Below are positions 124 through 31,509 of a DNA stretch of 64,000 nt, in pieces. The notes under the pieces were generated by a model. It had not been told where the DNA came from. It searched no databases and saw only the letters and a list, made by a program, of their open reading frames with translations. The DNA is from Heligmosomoides polygyrus polygyrus (taxonomy: Eukaryota; Nematoda; Chromadorea; Rhabditida; Heligmosomidae): the NCBI GenBank assembly GCA_947396885.1, contig OX377203.1, forward strand, positions 7,936,001-8,000,000. The letters run 5' to 3'. The position numbers were made by a program, and so were the translations under genes. Within the stretch, counting starts at the first letter, position 1, and every line of letters begins with the position of its first letter.

Positions 124-3100
124 ACTAATGACGTATTGCATCTGATTCCCAAGCTCTGACTGGATGCGAGGCTTCTCCTTGAACATGTACTGCAGGTCGA
201 ATGCAATCTTTGGTGCCTCGTCAACTCGCAACGTCGACAGCACCCTTGACCCCTGGGTTATGTTGATCTCTGAAAGACAAAAGTATTTCTCAGGTACACT
301 TCTGAAGAACCGAAAGAAAGAGCCGTACTTTTCCTGTTCCGCATCGGATTGTTGATGAGCTGGTAGAGATCTGGTCCGTAGCCCATTTCTCCTCGTTCGA
401 ACTTCTCCTTCTGCAAAATACCTGGGAATACTTGAGGGCTTGAGACTACGGCGTTTGAATATTGTACCTCTTCCTCGAGCTTCGAAGCGACCTCCTCTTT
501 CCTTGCATTTTTCTTCATTCTGTCTTTCTCCTCGCGACGTTGTTTTACAGCGACAAACTCCAGAAAAGAAACACGCTCGGCAACCGTCTCAGTAGTGTTC
601 AGAATGCTAAAAGCTCGAAAATGGAATACTCTTTCCTGTTTAGGCATATACGGCCGGCCTAGTGGGCCCAAACACCGCTGTGGATCTCGAATAGACAGTG
701 TTCTAGGGATGTAACGGGCGACACTTGATCATGGATATTAAACGACGTGTTAGAAATCTGTTCGAAACCTAAAAGCTGACCGTCACCCACACTTGCTATG
801 ATTTAAAGCAATCGTGACTTCGCGAAGATCCACTTCTTATTGCTCTGCTTGTTTACTGTAGGGTTGAACTCGAATTGGAGAAGATACGAGCTTTGTTGAT
901 CGACTGACCTTTCGGCGATGAGTCTCAAAAACTAACGGTTCAATTACCCAAGTTTGAGAAGAAGGCGACATCGTTGAAACGTGAGCCGAGCAATAAACCT
1001 TGCACATCTCGGATTCGAGTTCAGGACTACAGTAAACAAGTGGATATCGGTCAGAGACGAGACTCGAGAAGGGTCGAACTTGGCAGCTACTTCTTATTGG
1101 GTGCTAAAGAGATGTAGAGCATGGTCGCATAAAGAGAAGCCTAAAGAAGAATAGGTTGCCAATTAAGAAATAATCGTCTTGAAAGTATGTCTATCTGCTA
1201 AAACTACGCTATCAATAAGCTCAGAGAACTTTGGTAACCATTTACAACTGCTCAAAAGACTTACCGGAACCAGTCGTCGTCCGACAACGATTTTGGCACG
1301 AATGTTCCCATGTAAGCGAATATCTGAAGAAAACAGGAGGAGGCTATAACATAGTGCTGAAACTCACGTTTTCAATGATTACGCCTACCTCCAGCTCCTT
1401 CATAACTTCCTTGAGCTTCTTGTGGTGCTTGAATGGCGTCACCGACCAGACTTTTTCCGACGGCATCAGAGCTTTCAGCTGCTCCTCATAATCTACTTCG
1501 TTGGTAGACTGCGTCTCTTGTTCACCGGTCGCTTCCGCCTCTCCGTACCTACACAGATTTATAATAACAAGCTTATTGATTGAAAATCATCGGCAAACAA
1601 CTAGACATCTTCAAAGAAAACCAGCGTTGTGGAGTGTAGTTTTAGCTGGATGTGACAAACCTCTACAACCCTGGCGTGACATAAAGTATGACATATGATG
1701 GTACATTGAACCACGCCATCTCGATATACAGGGTGCGCCAAAATTATGGCGACAAGGTTTTCAATTCGCCGAGAGAGAAGATGCGGTACTTTCGAAAACC
1801 CAACGATGAGATAATGTTTACCAGTCTATTGTAAACTATACGCAACATTGAGATTCGAAGATATCTCCATCGGCATCGATATAGACTTTGAGACGCTTCG
1901 GGAAGGCATCGACGGCGGCGCGCAGGTAAGGTGCGTTGAGCTCATCCCACGCTTTTCTTCAAAGGATCCACGGGGCGGTGAGGTTTCCCGCAGGCTTCCA
2001 TAGCTGGCCAGACAGTGTAATCCATCGCATTCAAATCCGCAGAGTTGGCTGGCCACTCGTGGAAGCTGATGAATTGCGGAAAGTTGCCTTTGCACCAGTC
2101 TTGCAGCATTCTTGCTCTGAGAGCTGGAACTCCTTCCTGTTTGAAGGTCCAGGAGGGTGCACGTAGATCTTCTTGTAGGCTTTAAGTTTCAATTTACGGA
2201 AGATTCTTCTCAACGACGTCTCCATGATGTCCATTTTCCCGACAACCGGCGGACCGAGCGCGCCGGCCCCTCCGAATCCGTTCACTTACCTTCCTAATGT
2301 TGTCCGTAGTTGTCACAGATACGTGTCTTTCCCGTCCGGATCTATCATCCTCGGTTCCCAGGTCTTCTTAGCGTCTGATGGACCTACTCATAATACTCTG
2401 ATGAACTCCAAGACGGTGGTGAATGTAGCGTGCCGAGAAGCCTTGACGGCAAAGCTAAATGATTTAAGAACGGTGGCACGAACGCTTCACTATCTTGGAA
2501 AACGACAAAACGACTTATTGTTATGTTTGACTGAGGTAAGCACAAACTAATTGACTCAATAAAACAATAAGAGCACGAAAAAAAGCAGACGCCCCGAATA
2601 AAAGGTCAAATTGTTTGTGCATGTGCTGTCGCCATAATTTTGGCGCACCCTGTAATTTCACATAGGCTAGCAACACTTGAGTTTATTTCTGTTGCAGCGG
2701 CAGTTGTTGAAAATAAAACTAGGTGCATGTCTCCTGCCAACTTTACGGTGCAATCTTAAGGCGGGAAAGCGGCACCTTATAACGGTATCTGAGCCCTACC
2801 CCTCGTTCTTCCGGCACGTCAACCCCCACCCTCAACCCCAGAGTCCTCTGATGACCTAACAATATACAGAACAAAAAGAAAGACGGGAGCAAACAATAAA
2901 AAGCAAAAAATACGCCCCAGGCGTCCCGGATCATCTCTACGTATCGCCCCACGGTGAATCAGTCGACGCTCACGCATTGGATAGCGCGAGAATCTAAACG
3001 GGGATTGGCCAGTTGAGCCTTTTCATGCTTTTAATAACTAATTTTTTCAATATTCCGACCATGGGACCCGCTGTTTTCACGGGAGGGCATAGGTAAGCAC

Positions 3101-4158
3101 TTTTATGTTATTTTATGTTGTGTAAGTTTATCTTCAAATACTATTTACAAGTACTGTCTATGGAGTGCCCCCCCCCGTCATGGGATTGCAGCAACTTTAC
3201 TTGCCCAAAGCATTGCTACTACAGTTATAATGTCTGTCTATCCACTCTCAGCATTTTCATCGCACCAGTTTCTGGACAAAACCCTCGGGCTTTGCCGAGC
3301 ATAGTAAGTAGAACCCCTTTCTAGTCTTGTAGGCGTAGATTGGCTTAGAGGTGTTTCCTTGTAGGACAGCCGTATACAACTTCTTATACGAAATTAGAAC
3401 TTAGGCAGTACGGGTGTGTTCGATCCCTATGACGAAATCAGCCAGGCCATTTCTGATGTAATTGGACATACATGTGCCTTCTTAGCAAACGAATGTCCAC
3501 TGATAATAAGTATCCCCCTCAGCATGCTTGCTCTGAGTTGCGCGTAAAGCTGTTTCTGACGCCAATAAGGTCTGGTGTAAAAAAAATGGCACCAAAATAG
3601 AGTGTTTGATAAACTTACAACCGGAAAAAAACAGTCTAGGCTGAACATCGTTGCTTCGGAGTGAAATTAAGGGAAATCTTTACGGGACCACGCAATTGCC
3701 TATCCGTCTGCTAATCAGTCGCTGCAACCAGCGATATTTGCGTGCTTGTATGGCGCAAATAGGATCGGGGGGGGGGGAGTCTTCTGATGGGCAGAAAATC
3801 TATAGAACGTCCTTAATGTCCCTCATCTCTGACTCCAACGTATAGAGCCTGTAGTAAGAGCGTTCCATGGTTAACAAAAATCAGGTTTGAATCGCGCGGT
3901 TGTGGGCGTTGCGCACAGGACAACTCGGACAGATTTTTTCCGGTTGAGAGGGTATTGGCGAGTCCAAAACAGACAAATGCATGTAGAAAAAATAGAAAAA
4001 ACATAGAATTGGCGTAAAACTCACGGTGGAGGATCCTCAGCAGCTTGTACAGAATACATCCTTGGCTGGACTTGTTTCGTTCTAGCACATATCGGCCGTA
4101 GGAGATTTAGTTCTGTCAGACAGCGAAATACAGAGCGTGATATCATTGGCAGAAGCAT
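124..4158 (-). CDS. TRM10 / mitochondrial RNase P protein 1-like methyltransferase, 5' exons (3' part off window)
   Basis: I join four exons: 4158-4025, 1548-1389, 1323-1265 and 606-124. All have GT-AG borders and every junction keeps phase (CC+G, 0/0, CG+C). The ATG lies three bases after a TTCAG, which suits trans-splicing. Residues 1-45 are rich in Arg/Ser/Leu with no acidic residue before Glu16, like a mitochondrial leader. Next come an acidic linker, a segment with FVPKSLSDDDWFR, a basic helix (FLEFVAVKQRREEKDRMKK), and the start of what looks like the SPOUT fold (PKIAFDLQYMF). In the TRM10 family this layout belongs to tRNA m1G/m1A9 methyltransferases; the mitochondrial member is an RNase P subunit. 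One base seems to be missing near 356, where the frame must shift once; this is a sequencing error or a real lesion. The gene runs off base 1, so the SAM-binding knot is not visible. The family call rests on pattern memory; the exon structure is firmer. Confidence 0.6.
720..1100. repeat. Imperfect fold-back sequence with SL1-like segment, in intron
   Basis: Two diverged arms (about 845-930 and 950-1040, sharing TTTACTGTAG and its complement) flank a loop inside the 658-bp intron of the TRM10-like gene. Positions 937-958 match the 22-nt nematode SL1 leader at all but its fifth base (C for T). No GT donor follows (the next bases are AAGAAG), so it is not a working SL RNA gene. Confidence 0.5.
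1729..2652 (-). mobile_element. Mariner/Tc1-type transposon relic, internally deleted
   Basis: Matching 25-bp terminal inverted repeats (1729-1753 and 2628-2652, starting CAGGGTGCGCC) are flanked by TA on both sides. Minus-strand fragments recall the paired-domain region (KMDIMETSLRRI around 2230) and the C-terminal transposase signature (SADLNAMDYTVW around 2030, then ELNAPYLRAAVDAFPKR near 1920). The central catalytic region is missing and stops interrupt the frames. At 924 bp it is shorter than a typical 1.3-kb mariner. It is a dead copy inside the first intron of the TRM10-like gene. Confidence 0.85.
2653..4024. other. Intron 1 remainder of TRM10-like gene
   Basis: The stretch lies between the mariner relic and the first coding exon. 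I see short open frames but none with splice sites and a protein-like sequence. A G-run near 3770 follows GCGCAAATAGGATCG, a motif also present at 18561, so a fragment of that repeat lies here. Confidence 0.5.
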
Positions 4159-4526
4159 TTCTGAAGCACTCTTCAAATTTCTAGCAGTACATTATCAATG
4201 CTGTTCACGTGCACATACTATTTAAACGATAGGTGCGAAGAAAAAGGAAGAAATCAACACAAACTAAACGGTAATGAAAGCGCACACTGCCAAAACTGAG
4301 AATTAAACACCTTCGTCGGTCCTGACTAAGGTTTTCCTGCAAACTAATAGTTCCAGTGGTTAAAAGTGAACAGTGTATCCGTAGAACAGACAAGTACCAC
4401 CTCAAAACTGCCTGAAGTATCGCGAAATCAAAACGATGCAAAGCAAAAAAAAAAACATGCTCTGCAATCGCGGCAGAAGCACCTAAACTCACGCCTGCAA
4501 CGATTTGAACAGTACCGTACCCACTG

Positions 4527-5355
4527 TGGTGTAGATGACTTTAGCCAGCGGAACGTCTACAGGGGAGGGGCTAACCGTGCTGTACAAGACGTGCGTTTAT
4601 GAGATTGCGTTTACCTTCTTTCTCACTTCTGTTCTTTTTCACTTTGTTAGTGAGATTGGGCATCTCCACTGGATCTACGGTTTGTTCCACTGGAACAACA
4701 AAGTGTGGATGAAAACACTAGTCAGCCATCCAGTGCTACAGCTACTGGGCCACTCCCTCGTAATCCCCTTTTTTATGAAATTGGACAGCCAGCTAGCTGA
4801 GCTGTCGTCTTCGTGGAATCGGGAAGCCAGGGTTGCGTTTAGTTCTGTAGCACGTTCCAAATGCATTGCTCCAATTTGGTCGGAAGCTTTTAAGGAGCCA
4901 TTAGGCGCAATCCTAGTTGGAACAGGTCGCATCTTAACGACCTCGTTGGAGGTGGATATGTTCAGTCTATCTATGTATCGCTCCTAGCGGCGCGTGTAAC
5001 GCAATCGGAGAAGGCGCCGGCTGTCGCGTGCACTCGATACCAGATCCCTGGTTCGGATTCCAACCCCTCCATCCCTTTCGCCCAGTAAGGAACGCTTTAG
5101 AATATCTGAAAAGTATCTTTCAGGCGATCGCTACGGGACCGTTTTTTTATCTGGTCAAGCAAACATGTTCTGCTCATCTTCGATGGGCTCGTTTTCTAAT
5201 CGGATTGCGTTAATATACACTTTCTCTTTCCTCCTGCTTTACAAGGCAGCAAGGTATCTGGTTTATATTCATTTCTATCATTATTTCTCATCTTATTTTT
5301 AACGTTTCTTGTCCATAATAAGAGAGCTCATAAGAGTATATATGTTAATGTTGCT
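4527..5355 (+). repeat. 829-bp duplicated unit, copy 1 (second copy 50411-53170)
   Basis: The sequence is nearly identical to 50411-51061 joined to 52966-53165. It contains an open frame of about 150 codons (4535-4987) that survives in both copies with only a few changes, all near its start or midpoint. The frame has two hydrophobic stretches near its N-terminus but matches no family I know. A tRNA-like segment follows (about 4985-5090, with a B-box-like GGTTCGGATTCC). Few differences mean recent duplication, so an open frame is weak evidence of coding. A SINE-like or composite non-autonomous element is the likeliest reading. Confidence 0.6.
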
Positions 5356-19116: not shown

Positions 19117-20900
19117 ATAGGGAGAATCCTCGTCCTCCAAATAGAAACAGAACATGTCTTGTTTCTGCCGAATCCTTGAGGCAAACGAATACGAGGGTGT
19201 GATGATTAAGGGTCCGCAGAGCGAGCTCTTCACGGCAGCGCAAGATCCCTGTTGTGGACTGGATGGCGCAGTGATAGAGGGTACGCCTCATGTTCGTGAG
19301 GTCTAGGGTTCGGTTCCGATGCTACATCGCGTTTTTGCACTTTAACCATAGTATCGGATTTCCATAGAGATTTCCATATCTGAGCTTGTGTTTGGCTTCA
19401 CAGTTCCTGCCCAGTGGTAATCCGCTGCAGCCCAAGCCTGGAATCGCGATACAGTCCACTTTCCCCAGTTCTCAAACTTGTATAGTATAACAATTCTAAA
19501 TAGCAAAGCCAAATCTTTTCTTCCGAAACGATCTGTCCTCCCGAAAAAGTGATAGTGCCTTCATTGGTTAGTGGTGCCGTGACTCCGGCACAATCCTCTT
19601 CTGGTTGAAACTATTGGTCCTCTTCTTCCACTACCTCCAACTTCTCCACTTCGTCGATTACCAGCTGCCGCGGTTCGAAATCCTGAGGATACTTGCTATC
19701 CTTTCCGCCAGCTTCATTTCGTCTCTCGAAGCGACAGCATCCAGTGGAGATCCGCACTTCAGAGTCAATAGGTGAATGACCACTCGAGGGTTAGCAGACA
19801 TCGTAGAGGCAGTGTTGGCGGCAGCAGCTTGTTATAACCGCGCGACTTTGTAAGCATAACAGAGGCGAGAATATTGATCGAGGCGGTAGGTCAAGTTGAA
19901 GATCGTGTGGTCCCCTCCCACACTGTGAGTACACTGGTGGCACTTACCTCACTGATACCAATAAATTGCATTTGAAGAATTTTTCTGGCATTCTGCCGCT
20001 GTTTCATGTTGTTCCTGTGTCAAAATTTCTTACATTGGCAATGAGAACAATTTATTGGAGTAAAAGTTTCATACAAAATCGCATTTGGCACATTTCGGAC
20101 ATTGCTGGTGAATTACGAGATGTCGACAAATAATATGTAATAAAAACATCTTACCGTAGCAAACCCCAAAAACAAGTTCGGTTATGGAAATCTCTATGGA
20201 AATCCGATATTATGGTAAAAGTGCAAAAACGCAGCATAGCATGGGGACCGAACCCTAGACCTCACGAACACGAGGCGTGCCCTCTACCCCTGCGTCACCC
20301 CGCCACTCAGTCCATGACACCGGGATCTTGTGATGCCGTGAAGAGCTCGCTCTGCGGACCCTTAACCATCACACCCTCGTATTCGTTTGCCTCAAGGATT
20401 CGGCAAAAACAAAACATGTTCTGCTACTATTTGGAGGACGGGGATTCTCCCTATATTACTCGTTCTTGACGTTCCGGCGTACCGTTCAGACAGTTCCCTT
20501 GTTAGTCGCCGGTATCTACCGTAATCGGGCGAAATTTCAAAAATGGATGTCAGATTCTTTATCAGCACTCCAAACAACCCCCGGGCGAAGTTTGGAGGAG
20601 ATGCCTGATAGGCTAAGCACACGTTTATTCTTGGACTCACCTCCCTTGCTTTAAGATTGCTAGTGTCCTGCTGAGGCCAGATCGCCATGTATCTGGGCTG
20701 GAAACCCGAATGGCGCAGAAACCACTTTCAGTCTCCGCAAAGGCCCACTGTCAGCTCACACTTCCGCCGACGGCGACAGCGAAGTGAACAAAGGCGCTCG
20801 AGCGAGAATGTCCGCGACGTGTCCGCAAGAAAAGACGCGTTTCGCCTCCGATATACTCCGGCGAAACTTTCGCTTTGAAGTTTCTACACATAGATCGGAA

Positions 20901-21402
20901 GGAGAAGGCTTTATCTCTCGTCGTCGTGCAAGTATACGCTGGGCGCGTTACTCGTTATACATGGTATACGTTTACATACATGCGAAATGCGTAGGACATA
21001 CGCGTACTGAGGCGTGGCAAGTAGTTATAATGGTCATGACGTAACGTCGCTCCGATCCGGTGGATTATAAATGTAAGGCATGAGAAGATTAGGAGTAGCA
21101 ATATCTTTTAACAACGATTATCTCACGAATTGATATATTGACTATGAACGTAACACCTCTCTGGTGCAATGAATTATACATGTAAGGAATGAGAAGACTA
21201 TGTGTACAGCAATATCTCCTAACAGCAAATATGTCATGATGCGTCCGTGGGCGTCGGTCGAAAGCTGGCGATGCTGTAGTGACGCCGACCATGTCCGCCA
21301 AGATGCTACCGGCACTGTGAAGAAGTGGACGTACGAGCTGACCGCATCTGCAAGGAAGAACTAAATTCCCCGAGGGGTTGGCCCGTTGGGACTATGCTCC
21401 CA
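20901..21402. other. PAT-like element 3' non-coding region
   Basis: About 500 bp between the recombinase stop and B2. It holds an imperfect direct repeat (ATAAATGTAAGGCATGAGAAGATTA at 21067 and its relative near 21172-21200) but no frame of note. Confidence 0.6.
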
Positions 21403-22284
21403 CTACGACGCCAATGGGGACGGTTCTATGTAGCATCTAAAAGCCTCGAAGGACTTCCAACGACCCGCTAGCATGACTCTCCCAGTGTCGATACCGGTCC
21501 TTACTGCGTGAGTAGCCGCGCCACCTCTAAATGAATGCGGTGTCAACCTTTTATGTCCCAGGCCGGAGAGCGTTAGGGACTTTTTAATGACCCGAGCAGC
21601 AAAATCTCTAGTCGGCTTACCTCCGTTGCGCGAACTGAAAAGAAAAGACTGTGGCAGCAGAGGACCTCTAATTTTGCAGAATCTCTGCCATAATAAGGTC
21701 TGGGTCAGGTCTAATTTAATGGCCACGTTAGTACCTACTCCCGCCTGATCGGTCTTGGACCTAGCGATCAGTATCCACCATATGCCATCGCCTCTATAAG
21801 AAATGTGTTGGAACTGAAGCGCGCAAAGCTCACTAATCCTTAGCAGCCCCTGGAAAGCGATAAGGACCATGGTTGCCCCTATGACGGCTTGGTCCGAACT
21901 TTGGTCGAGGGCAGTTTTAACTATTATATCTAGATCGGACTTGGAAGCCTTGGGGTGATGCTTGGCAGGCGGTGAAGACTTACTGGCCATCCTAAGCAGC
22001 GCTTTCAAAACGTCTGCATCGTCCGAAGGCAGAGGACCGAAGAAATGTGCGAGGGCGCTGATATGGTATCCTAGAGATCTAGCCTTGCCTAAGTGGATTA
22101 GGTGAGCCACAAAAACGTTCCTCAGTTTAGAGAGGCCTGATATGGGAACCCGAAACTTGGAAATAAAATCCAAGAACTGGGTCTTCACTCGCCGGTAGAT
22201 CTTGAGCGTCCCTGGTGCTACGGCAAGATCGATACAGGCCTCGATAATGGAGGCTACATGCTGAAGGCCCACTGCTGACGCCAT
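21403..22284 (-). CDS. PAT-like element tyrosine recombinase (phage-integrase fold)
   Basis: A 293-codon frame. Tyrosine recombinases of this order integrate a circular DNA copy by strand exchange without target duplication. Residues 1-100 form the SAM-like core-binding region; the catalytic half has Arg149 (LLRISELCALQ), His250-Ser-Phe-Arg253 (HSFRGGAATH), Trp276 in the second His/Trp position, and nucleophile Tyr285 (FRCYIEP). Every expected catalytic residue is there. It is separated from the RT by the B1-A2 repeat, so it probably has its own promoter or is read from a downstream start. The ATG follows A2 by about 110 bases. Confidence 0.92.
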   Translation of the reverse strand: MASAVGLQHVASIIEACIDLAVAPGTLKIYRRVKTQFLDFISKFRVPISGLSKLRNVFVAHLIHLGKARSLGYHISALAHFFGPLPSDDADVLKALLRMASKSSPPAKHHPKASKSDLDIIVKTALDQSSDQAVIGATMVLIAFQGLLRISELCALQFQHISYRGDGIWWILIARSKTDQAGVGTNVAIKLDLTQTLLWQRFCKIRGPLLPQSFLFSSRNGGKPTRDFAARVIKKSLTLSGLGHKRLTPHSFRGGAATHAVRTGIDTGRVMLAGRWKSFEAFRCYIEPSPLAS

Positions 22285-22684
22285 GCAAGCCGTGTCGGAG
22301 GCTGCCGTCTGGCGTAGGCCGTGGATTACAGCTGTAAATCATATTTTATTTCATTTCGTTTTACACTTTAACTTAAATGGGAGGGCGGGTGGGGTCGCTA
22401 GACGAGAAAAAGCCGGAATGGGTTCGGCCGGGGCCCCTCCCTCCTCGTCAGCGCCGGCGCTAGCTGACCTCAGCTAGCGCGAGGCGCTGCCTCGTGACAC
22501 CGCAGGTGCCGGTACCGTATCGCTGGTACCGGAACCTGCATTCGGGGCCGAATGCATCGACCGCTGTCGATGACAGAAGACATGTAGAAATTCAAACCAT
22601 CATTTTCGCCTCCGATATACTCCGGCGAAACTTTCGCTTTGAAGTTTCTACACATAGATCGGAACCATTAAAGCCCGGAGGGGG

Positions 22685-24778
22685 TTAAAATGATATTAAA
22701 GCGAAAGCGAAGTCGAAATTGAGGGTGGGACCACGAAATGTAAAGGAGAGAGCACTTGCTTGAAGCACCGGTGACCCTGCTGGAAGGATAATTAGGCTTT
22801 TGATTTCGGGGATCCAGGAGTCATTAACCCTAAGGAGGGGGAAGAACAGGTTTGATTTCCACATGGGAAATCCTAGAATTCCTTTACAGCGATGGGACTT
22901 TGCCCAGCGAAGGGTTTTGGGTATTAAATGGGGAGGAGGAACCAACCAAATGAGTCCTTGGTTCCATAGCGCTCCAGCTTCGTGCCCAAATGCGTACACT
23001 GCGTATGCGCCTTCGGAGGCCCATCTAGAAACGAAAATCGGACATTTGGCTGTACGATTACTTGCGAACATGTCCACTGAACAAGAGCCCCATGAGTCTC
23101 TGAGTTCAAGGTAAATCGCGTCTGATACTGCCCAGTCATCTAGGTCGACGAACCTGGAAGCTGAATCTGCTTCCGAATTCAAGGATCTTGGGATCCAGAT
23201 AAATTCTATCTTGAGCGCTAGTGCTTCACAAATGTCCCAGATGCTCACCGCTAACTCTTGTAGCTCTGTTTTACTACTACCCTTCTTAAGGATAATTACT
23301 GCTGCTTGGTTATCGCAGTACCAGATGCATTCTTCTGAAGAAATGAACTTCGCGAACGCCTTAATCGCTGAGAAAATAGCATACATTTCTCGGAAAGTCG
23401 AAGATAACTCTAACGTAGATGAAGGGAGGAGCGATGAGAAAGTTTTGGATGAATGATTATGGTAAAGTACTGCCCCCATACCGAAATGTGAAGCGTCTGA
23501 TGACACGATGAGCGCGTTCTCGGAAACTTCATGGGGTGCTTGTAGCGAAATTCCTTTAAATGAATTTTCGAATTCTAACCACTTTCTTATCTCACCTCTT
23601 TCCTGCTTGCTTAAGTTCCATCTGAAGGTTAGAGCAGTCTGGACACTTTGCTTATCAGCTATCTCTCCAATCGTGGCTCTCCACCGCCTCTTCAGATCTA
23701 AAGGAATGACAAGATGCATGGAGGAGATAAAGCCTTGCCATTTGAGTCGCTGCAGCAAAGAGGGGCTGCGGGTCTTTAGTAACCTCATACCGAACTCTCT
23801 AGTTCTGGCTCTTCTTTCACTAGTGAGGTCTAGTACGAAATCTTCCAAGTCTATCGTATGGCCTAGCCATGTTAGCTTCTGGGTTGGGACCCAGCAGCTC
23901 TTGTCTTCGGCTATCGAGAAGCCAGCAGAGTCGAGATCTGCACGTATAGTCTTCACCGACTCTTCGCACCAGTGTGCGGATGTGCTCCAGATTAGGCCAT
24001 CATCAAGATATATGGCCACACAAATGCCTTTGGCTCTCCACTTTTTTAGGAGAGGTTTTAAAAGCTTGGTAAAAATAAATGGAGCTAATGACATCCCAAA
24101 GGGCAGAACGACAAACTTAAAAAACCTATTTCTCCATTTGAAACCCAGGAACTTCGAGAAGTCCTTATGCATCATCACATGATGGAAACCTGACTTTAGG
24201 TCGAAAGACGCCATAAATCCTCCCCTCGGGAGCAGAGGAGCAACCTTCCTCATATCTTCATATTTAATCCCAACTCTTGGGAAACATCTGTTCAGAACAG
24301 AGAGATCAAGTATCAATCTCAACTTCTTACCTTCCGCGACGGAAAGTGGGTTGACGCGAATCGAAGAACCGTCTCTGACCTCCTCGACAGCTTTTGAGAT
24401 CAATAGGCGATCAATTTCTGAATCAATAAATGCAGCATTTATAAAAGCTGAAACCGAATTTTGCTTGCTGAAATTTAGTGAAGGAACTTCCACACAAAAC
24501 GGGTTGAAGCCGTGCAAAATAACCGATCGGATTAACTCAGACGGTCCCAATCTAGACCAAAACTCCTGTTTAGTGTGGATGTTCCCGGCTACGAACCCAC
24601 CTGTTATTTCTTGGTGATCTACAGTCGCTGCTGAAGTGCCCGAAGCGGCCACAGTTGTAGCACATCTGATGTGCCTTTGATTTGTCGACATGACCTTTGA
24701 AGTGCGAGCCCATGTAGCTCTTATCTTGCTGGCGTGGGTAGTTTGGTGGAGGAGCGAGGGCCCAAGACGCTCCTCCAT
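22685..24778 (-). CDS. PAT-like element reverse transcriptase / RNase H
   Basis: A 697-codon frame, open throughout. It copies the element RNA into DNA. Visible parts: RT fingers with LRLILDLSVLN (153-163), the first catalytic Asp in SFDLKSGFHH (191-200), LPFGMSLAPFIFTK (225-238), and YLDD (257-260). The RNase H has its four acidic positions at Asp428, Glu464, Asp489 and Asp538 (SDAS, FREMYA, YCDNQA, SEADS). The C-terminal 150 residues carry the DIRS-type extension (SVDMFAS near 570). No methyltransferase domain, unlike DIRS1, is seen. The frame starts inside gag. All catalytic residues are present, so this copy may be active or recently active. Confidence 0.92.
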   Translation of the reverse strand: MEERLGPSLLHQTTHASKIRATWARTSKVMSTNQRHIRCATTVAASGTSAATVDHQEITGGFVAGNIHTKQEFWSRLGPSELIRSVILHGFNPFCVEVPSLNFSKQNSVSAFINAAFIDSEIDRLLISKAVEEVRDGSSIRVNPLSVAEGKKLRLILDLSVLNRCFPRVGIKYEDMRKVAPLLPRGGFMASFDLKSGFHHVMMHKDFSKFLGFKWRNRFFKFVVLPFGMSLAPFIFTKLLKPLLKKWRAKGICVAIYLDDGLIWSTSAHWCEESVKTIRADLDSAGFSIAEDKSCWVPTQKLTWLGHTIDLEDFVLDLTSERRARTREFGMRLLKTRSPSLLQRLKWQGFISSMHLVIPLDLKRRWRATIGEIADKQSVQTALTFRWNLSKQERGEIRKWLEFENSFKGISLQAPHEVSENALIVSSDASHFGMGAVLYHNHSSKTFSSLLPSSTLELSSTFREMYAIFSAIKAFAKFISSEECIWYCDNQAAVIILKKGSSKTELQELAVSIWDICEALALKIEFIWIPRSLNSEADSASRFVDLDDWAVSDAIYLELRDSWGSCSVDMFASNRTAKCPIFVSRWASEGAYAVYAFGHEAGALWNQGLIWLVPPPHLIPKTLRWAKSHRCKGILGFPMWKSNLFFPLLRVNDSWIPEIKSLIILPAGSPVLQASALSFTFRGPTLNFDFAFALISF

Positions 24779-25355
24779 ATCGAAAGGGCTGGGGCTCCCT
24801 TGCTCCGTATGGGTGGGGCCGCTTCCAAACCACGGCCTTCGACTCCTTCCTAGGAGTCTCTTTCTTCATGTTCTTCAAGAACTCGGCCAAGGCTGGGTTG
24901 GACGTTTTAAAGCTCGCTGCCTTCTCATGTTGCTCAACGAAGTCCCATACTGCTGGGTCCTTGTCAGCAACGACGATAATCTCGTTCCGCTGGGAAAGTA
25001 GCTGGATCGCTTTCGCGATCGTCGCTTTAATACGATAGTCCTCGGGAGCTATCGGCAACAAAGGGCTAATCAAAGCCAGCACATCACTATTGAACTCATA
25101 CTGCTTCTCGAGACCTGGTCTCTTGAAGACAGGTTTACTCACGGTCGAAGTGGGCATCATCGTTGAAAGGAGATCGAACTCCTTGGCGACATCTGCGGCT
25201 TGTGCGACAGATGCGGACTCTCCAATTGATGACGATTGTACCAAAGCGGCAGCGGCTTCGGCTTGGACGTTTGCTCTACAGCAGAGCTCGTCAAAGGTGG
25301 CTTTAGGAATGGTAACCTCTGACGTGACGAAGTCCTGACTGTTAGTAGAGGACAT
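24570..25355 (-). CDS. PAT-like element Gag-like protein with CCHC zinc knuckle
   Basis: A 261-residue frame starts at an ATG 14 bases inside the A1 repeat. The N-terminal half is Ala/Ser-rich and probably helical; residues 170-225 are basic and Pro/aromatic-rich. A retroviral-type zinc knuckle has Cys232, Cys235, His240 and Cys245 (CYNCGRFGHFSSDC), which in Gag proteins binds element RNA. The stop lies 209 nt inside the next gene's frame, so the two overlap in different frames; the polymerase would need a frameshift or internal start. No protease is visible, as is usual for DIRS-order elements. Confidence 0.85.
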   Translation of the reverse strand: MSSTNSQDFVTSEVTIPKATFDELCCRANVQAEAAAALVQSSSIGESASVAQAADVAKEFDLLSTMMPTSTVSKPVFKRPGLEKQYEFNSDVLALISPLLPIAPEDYRIKATIAKAIQLLSQRNEIIVVADKDPAVWDFVEQHEKAASFKTSNPALAEFLKNMKKETPRKESKAVVWKRPHPYGAREPQPFRYGGASWALAPPPNYPRQQDKSYMGSHFKGHVDKSKAHQMCYNCGRFGHFSSDCRSPRNNRWVRSREHPH

Positions 25356-25580
25356 AGCGCGACAACCAGTCGCTAGACGAGAAAAAGCCGGAATGGGTTC
25401 GGCCGGGGCCCCTCCCTCCTCGTCAGCGCCGGCGCTAGCTGACCTCAGCTAGCGCGAGGCGCTGCCTCGTGACACCGCAGGTGCCGGTACCGTATCGCTG
25501 GTACCGGAACCTGCATTCGGGGCCGAATGCATCGACCGCTGTCGATGACAGAAGACATGTAGAAATTCAAACCATCATTT

Positions 25581-26464: not shown

Positions 26465-27172
26465 ACTTTTGCGTATAGGGATTACTTGGGGTGCTGATCA
26501 AGAATCTGACGTTCGTTTTTGAAATTTCGGCCGATTACGGTAGATTACGGGTAGGTATTCGTGAGAAAGGCTGTCGAGGTTATGATCACCGATTTCGCCC
26601 AAACATCGTCATCGCCCATCGGGGTTACTTGGGTAGCTGATCAAGAATCTGACGTTCGTTTTTGAAATTTCGGCCGATTACGGTAGATTACGGGTAGGTA
26701 TTGGTGAGAAAGGCTGTCGAGGTTATGATCACCGATTTCGCCCAAACATCGTCATCGCCCATCGGGGTTACTTGGGTAGCTGATCAAGAATCTGACATTC
26801 GTTTTTGGCGTTTCAGTGTAGTACACTAGGATGAAGTAGGTGATCATGACCTCAACAGCCTACTTACCCGCACCCTCTGTAATCTATCGTCGGCCGAAAT
26901 TTCAAAAACGGATGTCCAGTTCGTAATTACCACCTCAAATAACACCCCATAGACGATGTTTGGACGAAATTAGTGGTTATGCCTTCGGATGCCTTAGTCA
27001 CCCACGCCTACCGTATTTTAACATACTCCACTGTAGTACCTATTTTAACATACTCCACTGTAGTACCTATTTTAACATACTCCACTGTAGTACCTAAAAC
27101 AGATGCTTCCCCAAATAACCTCCATAACCTTTCGATCTCTGATCGAGCTTTGGAGCCGTGAAAGTACAATAA
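26465..27172 (+). repeat. Dispersed 145-bp-unit element with tandem units and a 27-bp array
   Basis: Three cores GCTGATCAAGAATCTGAC lie at about 26495, 26637 and 26779, a period of about 142-145 bp. A diverged minus-orientation part follows, then three 27-bp units ACCTATTTTAACATACTCCA (27030-27095). It ends GAGCCGTGAAAGTACAAT (27151-27168), the family terminus in inverse orientation. Confidence 0.8.
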
Positions 27173-28755: not shown

Positions 28756-31509
28756 TTTCAGCACTTCGTCATACGTGGTCGTTGGAGTCGGTACCCTCGA
28801 GGAGTGTGGCAGGCTCTTTAACTTATTGGTAAGTGTTAAGGTGTGCATTCAATACCACAGACAACTACCTCTTCTAATCAGCTTCTTTTCCAGCTGGCGA
28901 ATGGGTTCACGAACGTGTCGTTCTTTAACGATTTTCCAAGTGTGAAGGCGAGTACCTTTGCTTAAATTTCACATGTTAGTTCCTGAGAAAAACTTGTTTA
29001 GGAAAGCCAAGAGCCTACAGCTCCCGCTGAGGAATATATCTCAGGTAAACTCCATCCCTCTGTGTTACTACGTTATCCCATAAGTCCTCGCGGTTATTTT
29101 CAACAATTCACTGTGGATTTCGCCGGCAGTCTCTTGCATAGCGCTATAAAGCTTTCGAAAGAGAATGATTTGCTTTATCAGAACATGTATTGCATTTCTT
29201 TTTTCATCCTGAATTTTTCAATTTTTAGGACGTTAAAGTGAAAAGTGAAAAAGTGGCAATCTGCGCACTTGTTCTGTCCGCTCAAGTTTGGAATTTTGCG
29301 CAGTTTTTCACAGCATTTGGAAGGCAATGTTCTGTACTATAAGAATGCGTGTTGGTCCTATTTGCTCACTTGCTCTTTATTGATTTTCAGGCCGTCACAA
29401 CGATGTTTTGTTGCGATCAAAACTTCTAGCGCCAGGCGGGACTCGAACCCGCACCTCCCTCTGACCGGGCGGGAGTGCTCTACGCTTTTACACTACCGGC
29501 GCCGTTTGATCGAACGCAACATCCACACCCCGTATCCGGTATGACCTGGCCGCTGATATCAGCATGGAACCAGTAAAGCTGATGGTCTTGATAAAAACAT
29601 TTCAAATCAGTTTCCTTAAGCCATCAAGACCATCAGCTTCACTGGTTCCATGCTGATATCAGCGGCCAGCTCATCCCGGATACGGGTGGGTGCTGATCGG
29701 TCCCACGAGGTGTGGATGTTGCGTTCGATCAAACGGCGCCGGTGGTGTAATGGCGTAGAGCATTCCCGCCCGGTCAGAGGGAGGTGCGGGTTCGAGTCCC
29801 GCCTGGCGCTAGAAGTTTTGATCGCAACAAAACATCGTTGTGACAGCTTACTACCTCGATACCAGCCACTTGAGGCTTAAGGAAACATTTGGATTTTCAG
29901 GCCATCAAATTGGGACGTCCGAAAGAGAAGATTTATTTTTACCGACAGCTCCTGCTCTCTGGCAGGAATTTTTTGCTCGGTGTTATATGTCCGTCGGAAG
30001 AGAATGTCTTGCTCTATAAGAATTTATGTCCGTTTATTGGCTCATGCTGATTTCTATCGAATATCAACAAAATTCCAAAAAGAGAAAAATCATGTTTACC
30101 AACAACTCCATCTCCTTCAGTTGTTGATATTCGACCGAATTCAGCACAAGTCAATAAATGCGACACAAATTCTTACTGAGCAAGACATCCTCTTTCGAAC
30201 GACATATAACACCAAGCATAAAAGTCTAACCACAGAACCGAGTGTCGGTAAAAATTCGGACGTCCTTTCGTCCTTTGTTCACCTAAAATTCAATTAAGAG
30301 CAAGTTAGCAAATAGGACCAACACGTATTGTTGTAGTACAGAACATTGTCTTCCAAATGCTATGGAAAGCTGTGCAGAAAATTCCAAACCTAAGCGAGAG
30401 AAGCGGATGCGCAGATGGCCGCTTTTTCATTTTTCACTTTAACGACCTAAAAATTGACAAGATTAAGGATGAAAAAAGAATTGCAATACATGCTCTGATA
30501 GAGCAAATCATTCTCTTTCGCTGTATAGGCTATGCAAGAGACCGCCGGCGGAATCCGCAATGAATCGTTGAAAAAAAAATGGTGGAGACTTATGGGACAA
30601 CCTAATAGATAGTGTGGAAGATAGGTATCGCATTCTTAGTATTGGGGACGTGATTTGGGTGAATTGCTACCAGTATTACCGTTTCTTATGCAGTGTTCTT
30701 TTCAACCAGTACCTTTTCCCACATTTGCTCGTTCGTGTTTTTGTTGACGACTAACCATCTTTCCTCCACCATCACTATCAATAGGCAGACCTGCATTTCT
30801 ATCTCTGAAACGGCGCTGTCGCAAAAGGCCAATGCCATTCTCTCTCCACATTCATGCCAAGGTGCAGGCGCGCACGTAGAAAAGAGAGTCCACCCTCATT
30901 ATCTGCCAGAATTCTAGGAATTTGTTCGAATGCCTTTAAAATGGAGATGATGTGCTTGAACACAAATACATTGTAGTTCTTGAAGAGTCTTCTAAGCCTG
31001 TTTCGATTCCAACACTACACGATTCAACAGACAGTTTGGGAGGGTAGATGTACAGCGTTTACCATGTCGAAGGGCTGCGGTGATGAGTTGCATCATTGAA
31101 TACGTCAAGCATACGAATTACTGGGCAAAATTGCACTTCTTTCGTAAATATTGCCAGTACAGTGCTTTAGTTGTTAGTTCTTTTCCAAAACCCTAGGTCA
31201 TCGTTTTATGCAGCGTTTTCTACAGATTTAGTGGAGCCAACAACTTCAACGGCAAGCTGTTCTGCAGTCGCTCAGTCTGCGCTAATGCCTGAAGGTTTGT
31301 TTTGTTCTTTGTTAGAAACGGTTCAGAACTATCGCATTGGTCGAATGATCTCGTTTCTTTTCTTCAGCGGTCCAGTTGTTTTCATTTATTCACATTTATT
31401 CACTCATTTCATCAATTGCAGCTCCTTCGTTCAGCGAAGTATCTTCATTTGTCGTCAAAGAGGAGATCTGTGAAGAAGCATCTGTAGTGGAGAATAACGG
31501 TCCCCATAG
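28756..31509 (+). CDS. Unrecognised host gene, five internal exons (28756-31509)
   Basis: Exons: 28756-28828, 28894-28939, 28980-29044, 30785-30861 and 31226-31509 (as 31226-31294 plus 31422-31509). Borders are GT-AG with acceptors such as TTTCCAG and ATTGCAG. Phases agree across 1-2, 2-3, 4-5 and the final junction; between exons 3 and 4 they do not, so an exon is missing or one border is wrong. The first part is Gly/hydrophobic (YVVVGVGTLEECGRLFNLL, then NGFTNVSFFNDFP). The later part is Ser/Thr-rich and acidic, with FVVKEEICEE, a sumoylation-type motif found in nuclear regulators. I do not recognise a family. The 1.7-kb intron between exons 3 and 4 is filled by a fold-back. Confidence 0.55.
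29076..30602. mobile_element. Fold-back element inside intron, carrying a tRNA-like palindrome
   Basis: The left arm (about 29076-29395) and right arm (about 30297-30602) are reverse complements, ending CCCATAAGTC and GACTTATGGG. Between them lies a second palindrome (29395-29844). No transposase frame is visible. Confidence 0.75.
29395..29844. repeat. Palindrome with a tRNA-like gene in each arm
   Basis: Copies on the minus strand (29503-29429) and plus strand (29735-29810) are each about 76 nt. Acceptor-like ends GGCGCCG and TGGCGCT can pair (two G-U). The plus copy has an exact A-box match (TGGTGTAATGG) and both have GGTTCGAGTCC as B box. The anticodon arm does not close on a 7-base loop with T33, so I call these tRNA-derived sequences, not tRNA genes. 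Confidence 0.65.

Follow-up and report, generated by a model that had tools for sequence, protein, structure and literature searches.

A young, probably Pat1-like retrotransposon of Heligmosomoides polygyrus polygyrus with a co-varying palindrome where its split repeats meet

The genome of the nematode Heligmosomoides polygyrus polygyrus (assembly GCA_947396885.1) carries, within the 64,000-nucleotide window analysed here (contig OX377203.1, positions 7,936,001 to 8,000,000 of the forward strand; feature positions are counted within the window), a 4741-bp retrotransposon with a tyrosine recombinase (YR), located at 20840-25580 on the minus strand with its 5' end at 25580. It is a young, well-preserved member of a known, little-studied type of nematode retrotransposon. 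Because its order, its Gag zinc knuckle and a YR on the same strand fit the nematode form of the Pat1-like elements (order DIRS), we assign it to that form, and its insertion to recent times, with a probability of about 0.8. Where its split repeats B and A meet, related families share a palindrome with co-varying arms, which is probably a signal for circle joining (circularisation) or for the recombinase, as judged from sequence comparison.

Read in its own sense, the element follows the order A1-gag-pol-B1A2-YR-B2. The A repeats (A1, 25369-25580; A2, 22394-22605) are 212 nt long and the B repeats (B1, 22604-22664; B2, 20840-20900, the 3' end of the element) 61 nt, both pairs being 100% identical base by base, with an overlap of two bases between B1 and A2. 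In element-sense positions, A1 occupies 1-212, the gag ATG lies at 226, pol at 716-2893, B1 at 2917-2977, A2 at 2976-3187, YR at 3243-4175 and B2 at 4681-4741. The element's borders are drawn from the repeat boundaries, from boundaries common to a second copy at C27:25619012-25623757 and from an empty site (L069), and the left host flank ends at 20838-20839 according to the comparison of the empty and the filled site. A first-pass annotation of the same DNA had proposed a complete PAT-like element with exact split repeats of these lengths and a recombinase between A2 and B2, after the internal B1-A2 repeat; split-repeat order, domains, shared boundaries and empty site agree with this, and the strand, which had been left unstated, is the minus strand.

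The three minus-strand frames are open, as had been reported: gag at 25448-24570 (24570-25355 from its first ATG at 25355), pol at 24865-22685 in the +1 frame relative to gag, and YR at 22338-21403. Above the Pfam cut-offs, gag contains a zf-CCHC zinc knuckle (PF00098, 26.5 bits vs a cut-off of 20.8), pol RVT_1 and RNase H, and YR Phage_integrase, the best match of YR among solved structures being Cre. The reverse transcriptase (RT) motif YLDD has been found at pol residues 286-289, the RNase H catalytic residues at D457, E493, D518 and D567, and those of YR at R167, K195, H268, R271, W294 and Y303, on the same strand as pol. The RNase H positions 428/464/489/538 and the YR residues R149/H250/R253/Y285 given earlier belong to these same residues, their numbering having been counted from Met 30 and Met 19. 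The C-terminal, MT-like region of pol can be aligned with that of relatives, PF05869 being present in some of them. Its residue 624 is Tyr in the window copy and Asp in both near-identical copies, and, among the 10 outside relatives aligned there, Asp in 7 and Asn in 3 (one more has a gap). Elsewhere in the genome, the loci read at this position have one of these two residues, apart from the decayed L013, with Gly, and from L016 and L024, which show a gap. The claim of intact catalytic residues has stood for RT, RNase H and YR, while intactness of the window copy as a whole is unproven, since no other sequence compared has Tyr where the relatives carry Asp or Asn. That the window copy is already dead, its Tyr disabling a needed MT-like function, is quite possible, at a little under even odds. 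The uniformity of Asp/Asn in relatives, genomic loci and near-identical copies speaks for it, whereas, according to the accessible part of PMC9210276, no function is known for the MT-like domain, which makes the effect of Tyr unpredictable.

A pol protein search of the 656-Mb genome yielded 81 matches from 62 scored of 1251 candidates, so that all copy counts are lower bounds. Three near-identical copies have been found, on C27, on C13 and in the window, and recent movement of the family follows from the difference of only 0.1-0.5% between the window copy and the other two. The C27 copy (25619012-25623757) matches end to end with 5 substitutions and one 5-nt insertion; its pol has a stop at codon 502, its two A repeats are identical, and its two B repeats agree over 59 of 61 nt. 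The C13 copy (41.53-41.54 Mb) shows 24 differences over 4614 nt and a pol stop at codon 244; its A1 equals its A2, with one shared difference from the window's A, and its B2 end (C13:41533781-41533908) is separated by an insert of ~1.9 kb. Two further derivatives belong to the young family, a remnant of the order A-YR-B (C52:68.74 Mb) and a partial copy (C13:102.86 Mb); B1A2 junctions with 85-93% identity occur in larger numbers (at least 41 matches, with 40 of 290 candidates scored).

The insertion itself can be read from an empty paralogue. With 400 nt of the right flank as query, the search returned the window and a single paralogue at C1:20692217-20692614 (96%), designated L069, whose left flank is 97.1% identical over 1500 nt and whose right flank is 95.5% identical over ~690 nt (the limits of the comparison), and which is continuous across the insertion site. 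The empty site reads gacgcg-TT-ctcattc and the filled one gacgcg-TTT...TTT-ctcattc; the element thus entered precisely, with a two-base TT core only and no target duplication at this one paralogous site, as would be expected from a tyrosine recombinase acting on a circle. Of the mobility suggested earlier, recent movement of the family has been substantiated by the near-identical copies and the empty site, and the window copy's own mobility is unproven in view of its Tyr 624. The assignment to the Pat1-like elements derives from layout, repeats and domains. Several points weigh against the reading of a recently inserted Pat1-like element: Pfam calls no MT family in the window copy's pol; Tyr 624 may disable this copy; and precise insertion has been seen at a single empty site.

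At the 29 other distinct places examined from among the best-scoring pol matches (not a random sample; L033 and L034 duplicate L004 and L005 and are counted once), YR has been found downstream of pol on the same strand in 26, and the A pair spans pol in 24. The recombinase belongs to the element, as its position is the same in 26 of the 29 related places; an origin as an unrelated insertion, which the first-pass annotation had named as the alternative, is ruled out by the same count. Intact copies of this order had also been called rare; that the order is unusual is not supported: it recurs in 26 of these 29 best-scoring places, it is the published nematode form, and it is common in this genome. 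Among proteins, 43 matched YR, the best at 67% identity, with named relatives in Ancylostoma, Ostertagia, Cylicocyclus, Cylicostephanus, Oesophagostomum, Cooperia and Haemonchus, and with further matches to one Caenorhabditis protein (33%) and weakly to bacterial integrases. For pol, the best 120 of 286 relatives include named ones from Oesophagostomum, Cylicostephanus, Ostertagia, Necator, Cylicocyclus, Ancylostoma and a brittle star. Strongylid nematodes supply most of the named YR relatives and the closest named RT ones, which makes a strongylid the likely host. In a genome contig collection, pol relatives also occur at 8 loci in records of bacterial metagenome-assembled genomes, and none were found in a viral contig collection. 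The A1-B1A2-B2 arrangement was not recognised in the 4 bacterial loci checked for repeats (L035-L038), contigs with distant pol relatives that are possibly eukaryotic contamination. L037 contains several inverted repeats, and L038 direct repeats ~4.8 kb apart around the pol match.

The element order corresponds to the nematode form of Pat1-like elements, 142 of which have been counted (PMC4157794; this and the other cited works are represented here by excerpts). YR elements are described there as rare overall, and 23 of the 29 rhabditid species sampled had no Pat1-like element. Common to that form and to the present element are A1-B1-A2-B2 split direct repeats, a Gag zinc knuckle, the lack of an integrase, an internal repeat between pol/MT and YR, and a YR on the same strand; no difference in order has been found against the excerpted description, which makes no mention of a junction palindrome, a YR splice acceptor or A-YR-B remnants. 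Ngaro elements share split direct repeats, RT-RNase H and YR, and solo AB repeats have been reported for them (PMC8547959), but their internal repeat lies downstream of YR and they have no MT domain (PMC4157794, PMC8547959, PMC9210276); with its internal repeat upstream of YR, the present element is not one of them. Kangaroo of Volvox likewise has its internal repeat between MT and YR, but differs in its inverted YR and in having no zinc finger (PMC4157794); the YR here is not inverted, which sets the element apart. DIRS1-like elements resemble it in RT-RNase H-MT (the MT being putative here) plus YR, a 3-bp circular junction (predicted here) and insertion without target duplication, but possess inverted terminal repeats and internal complementary regions (PMC3266345) in place of split direct repeats. 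None of 9 inverted pairs of at least 25 nt falls inside the element, so that inverted terminal repeats of the DIRS1 type, and with them DIRS1-like membership, are rejected at that length.

The B1-A2 junction palindrome of the window (22576-22657, minus strand) consists of an outer stem whose two arms lie in B and in A, respectively, and of an inner stem of ~7 bp that lies entirely within B and closes a loop of 13-14 nt (13 nt in the window). The ends of the element fall between the inner and the outer arms. In the two families with B delimited, B starts ~6-9 nt before the outer arm and is therefore little more than the palindrome's left half together with loop and inner stem. The lowest-energy folds show the two-stem structure in 7 of 8 families, and the DNA fold of the window junction has a z-score of -6.06; in the decayed L013 and L023, the palindrome is mostly or partly lost. 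Covariation was tested on 12 sequences from 8 families (23 pairs, 276 cells, 500 shuffles). Standard pairs occupy 86.2% of the 276 cells, as compared to 33.0-48.9% with the partner slid by 1-3 columns; changes on both sides occur in 15 of 23 pairs, and the covariation score is 0.430 vs 0.200 for shuffled data. For percentage paired, two-sided changes and covariation score alike, 0 of 500 shuffles was as high. RNAalifold recovers a nearly identical structure unaided. A covariance model built from the 12 sequences found the junction in 30 of 32 sources (two of which repeat others) and in 18 of 20 outside the training set, missing it in L011 and L025. At 12 further places, it found the junction in full in 9 and partially in 1, with no match at L107 and L112; these places belong nearly all to one family and therefore add places but hardly any new arm sequences.

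Some results count against a special role of this structure. The family L010 has a different lowest-energy fold (1 of 8); further pair types do not exceed the shuffles (25 vs 25.1, with 314 of 500 as high); the pairing of B2 with the start of A1 reaches -18.2 kcal/mol vs -32.2 for the best of 236 tested stretches; and the RNA energy of the junction ranks ~70th of ~930 overlapping windows. A signal for circularisation or for the recombinase is nevertheless the probable reading, and covariation does not distinguish among duplex, single-stranded DNA and RNA as the form that acts. One tentative possibility, clearly below even odds, is an ordinary double-stranded recombinase site, i.e., terminal inverted binding sites that co-evolve with the specificity of YR. 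It is favored by the constant spacing of the dyad, in which all RNAalifold-predicted pairs sum to column 83, and by cells that are mostly Watson-Crick, and is disfavored by element ends that lie off the dyad's centre, between inner and outer arms, and by the single bulged base that the window's family has in its outer arm. An RNA hairpin serving template switching, packaging or end-pairing in reverse transcription appears rather unlikely. G.T (G.U) cells outnumber A.C cells by 6 to 1 on the sense strand of the 12 sequences, with the bulge of the window family realigned, and the adjoining A repeat is strongly structured in 6 of the 8 families tested; these counts, however, are very small and exceeded by A.G mismatches (10), the A-repeat structure is not significant in 2 of the 8 families, and the raw pairing energy of the junction is unexceptional.

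A bolder analogy would regard the hairpin as a folded single-stranded recombination site, a eukaryotic counterpart of the attC sites of integrons, which we consider quite improbable. YR would then recognise a folded cDNA strand and exchange one strand at the inter-stem spacer, and the B repeats would be the left half of the site. The attC site (PMC2727003, in the part drawn on here) is likewise a two-stem hairpin with a spacer and a bulged base, the latter seen here in the window's family, with a crossover on one arm near the spacer and a tyrosine recombinase as its user. The geometry of two stems, spacer and one-armed crossover fits the junction, yet some families (L012, L026) have a paired spacer; attC is moreover bacterial, and its single-strand use is proven, in contrast to the conjectured one here.

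Besides full copies, 16 loci look like derivatives of the form A-YR-(B) without gag-pol, with both ends seen in 9. Three A-only matches without a listed B1A2 nearby all turned out to be A-YR-B units once fetched. A DNA search with YR gave at least 47 matches (40 of 165 candidates scored), from which 15 were chosen for having no listed B1A2 nearby. In 13 of these 15, A directly follows unrelated flank (~190 nt read); one shows B1 and the pol end, and one has no A. B1 and the end of pol were present in all three controls, for which a B1A2 or pol had been listed. Eight remnants were fetched whole, of which 6 end exactly at B and 2 show no B. In a tree built from 11 remnants together with 8 full copies, both kinds interleave with at least 5 changes, and a single Crypton-like lineage is rejected (one clade of 10, m52 left out; approximately unbiased (AU) test, p 2.4e-07). 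Since the remnants do not form one clade, recurrent recombination between A1 and A2, comparable to the formation of solo long terminal repeats, is the likeliest source suggested by structure and tree. The published reading of the solo AB repeats of Ngaro is recombination as well (PMC8547959, in excerpt). A mobile Crypton-like lineage, or products of circle resolution by YR, in place of chromosomal A1xA2 recombination, would account for the 16 loci that start with A at unrelated flank with no B1 or pol end in the stretch read, for the exact ends in 9, and for m13a and m13b being 94.8% alike at different sites. The interleaved tree with its rejected clade and the precedent of Ngaro argue against it, as does a broken YR in all three remnants with the frame examined. 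At 28 of the 30 distinct pol places searched (all but L011 and L025), B1 runs directly into A2, and the reciprocal A-gagpol-B form is therefore not seen among these 28, which likewise counts against this alternative. We regard it as very unlikely.

At the start of the YR frame, the window carries a 3' splice-acceptor-like TTTACAG (22331-22340, minus strand), and most relatives have the same motif and phase. A TTTCAG/TTACAG-type motif lies in phase 1 and at most 12 nt from the expected place in 18 of 20 loci; in L016 the motif is out of phase, and in L026 the script picked another AG. Two points tell against a spliced YR message: the 20 loci are separate places that include near-identical copies, judged with a permissive pattern and with no chance expectation for the 18 of 20, and an approximate donor matrix, applied around gag start, pol end and 5' leader, revealed no conserved donor (with the window family's gag start unscored). 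Spliced-leader addition and a poorly conserved donor are therefore both possible. The A repeats, which stand directly before gag (in the window just before its ATG) and again before YR, are predicted to form chains of RNA hairpins with z-scores below -3.5 in 6 of 8 families (-3.56 for the window A repeat). These chains could be a leader or packaging signal, as far as the modelled folds indicate.

A cycle can be proposed in which RNA would be made from A1, gag and pol would be translated from their overlapping frames, and YR would come from a spliced message, cis or spliced-leader, that uses the acceptor at the YR start. Reverse transcription would complete the ends via the internal B1A2 copy and give a circle with one B-A junction, which YR would recombine with a host site that shares only the AA/TT core, so that insertion would not duplicate the target. 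With an outer stem that forms only at the meeting of B and A, the palindrome would act in circularisation and/or as the signal bound by the recombinase. After insertion, A1xA2 recombination would repeatedly leave A-YR-B remnants. In a review (PMC5633606, in its accessible part), circular intermediates are given as verified for DIRS-1, and end completion and site choice of YR retrotransposons as modelled and not fully proven even there. This step can be tested in a genome that offers many related families with co-varying arms, one clean empty site and naturally occurring A-YR-B remnants. The open-access texts searched, which leave out most subscription papers, do not describe a hairpin where the split repeats join; the palindrome is possibly a new structural feature. 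For annotation, A-YR-B remnants can resemble Cryptons and risk being miscounted.

Regarding the sites of insertion, L020 and L027, which belong to different PAT families, have nearly the same host repeat upstream of A1 and start at the same base, reading ..CTACGACT[GC]CGGAG up to that base and AAGTGG from it, which hints at a target preference. The first host base after B2 is C in 9 of 19 B2 ends (the window, L031, L033, L034, m52, m13a, m13b and 12 units from the remnant search); the preference for C initially suggested by 5 of the first 7 ends dropped to this share with the later ones and has been discarded, and any site preference at this base is weak. Around the element, host repeats flank the insertion: two tandem units of 143 nt (97% alike) and part of a third lie at 26475-26829, and an inverted partner of the unit (85%) is found on the element's other side at 20509-20581. 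Farther away, two tRNA-Thr (GGT) genes at 29427-29503 (minus strand) and 29735-29811 (plus strand) stand in opposite orientation, ~230 bp apart.

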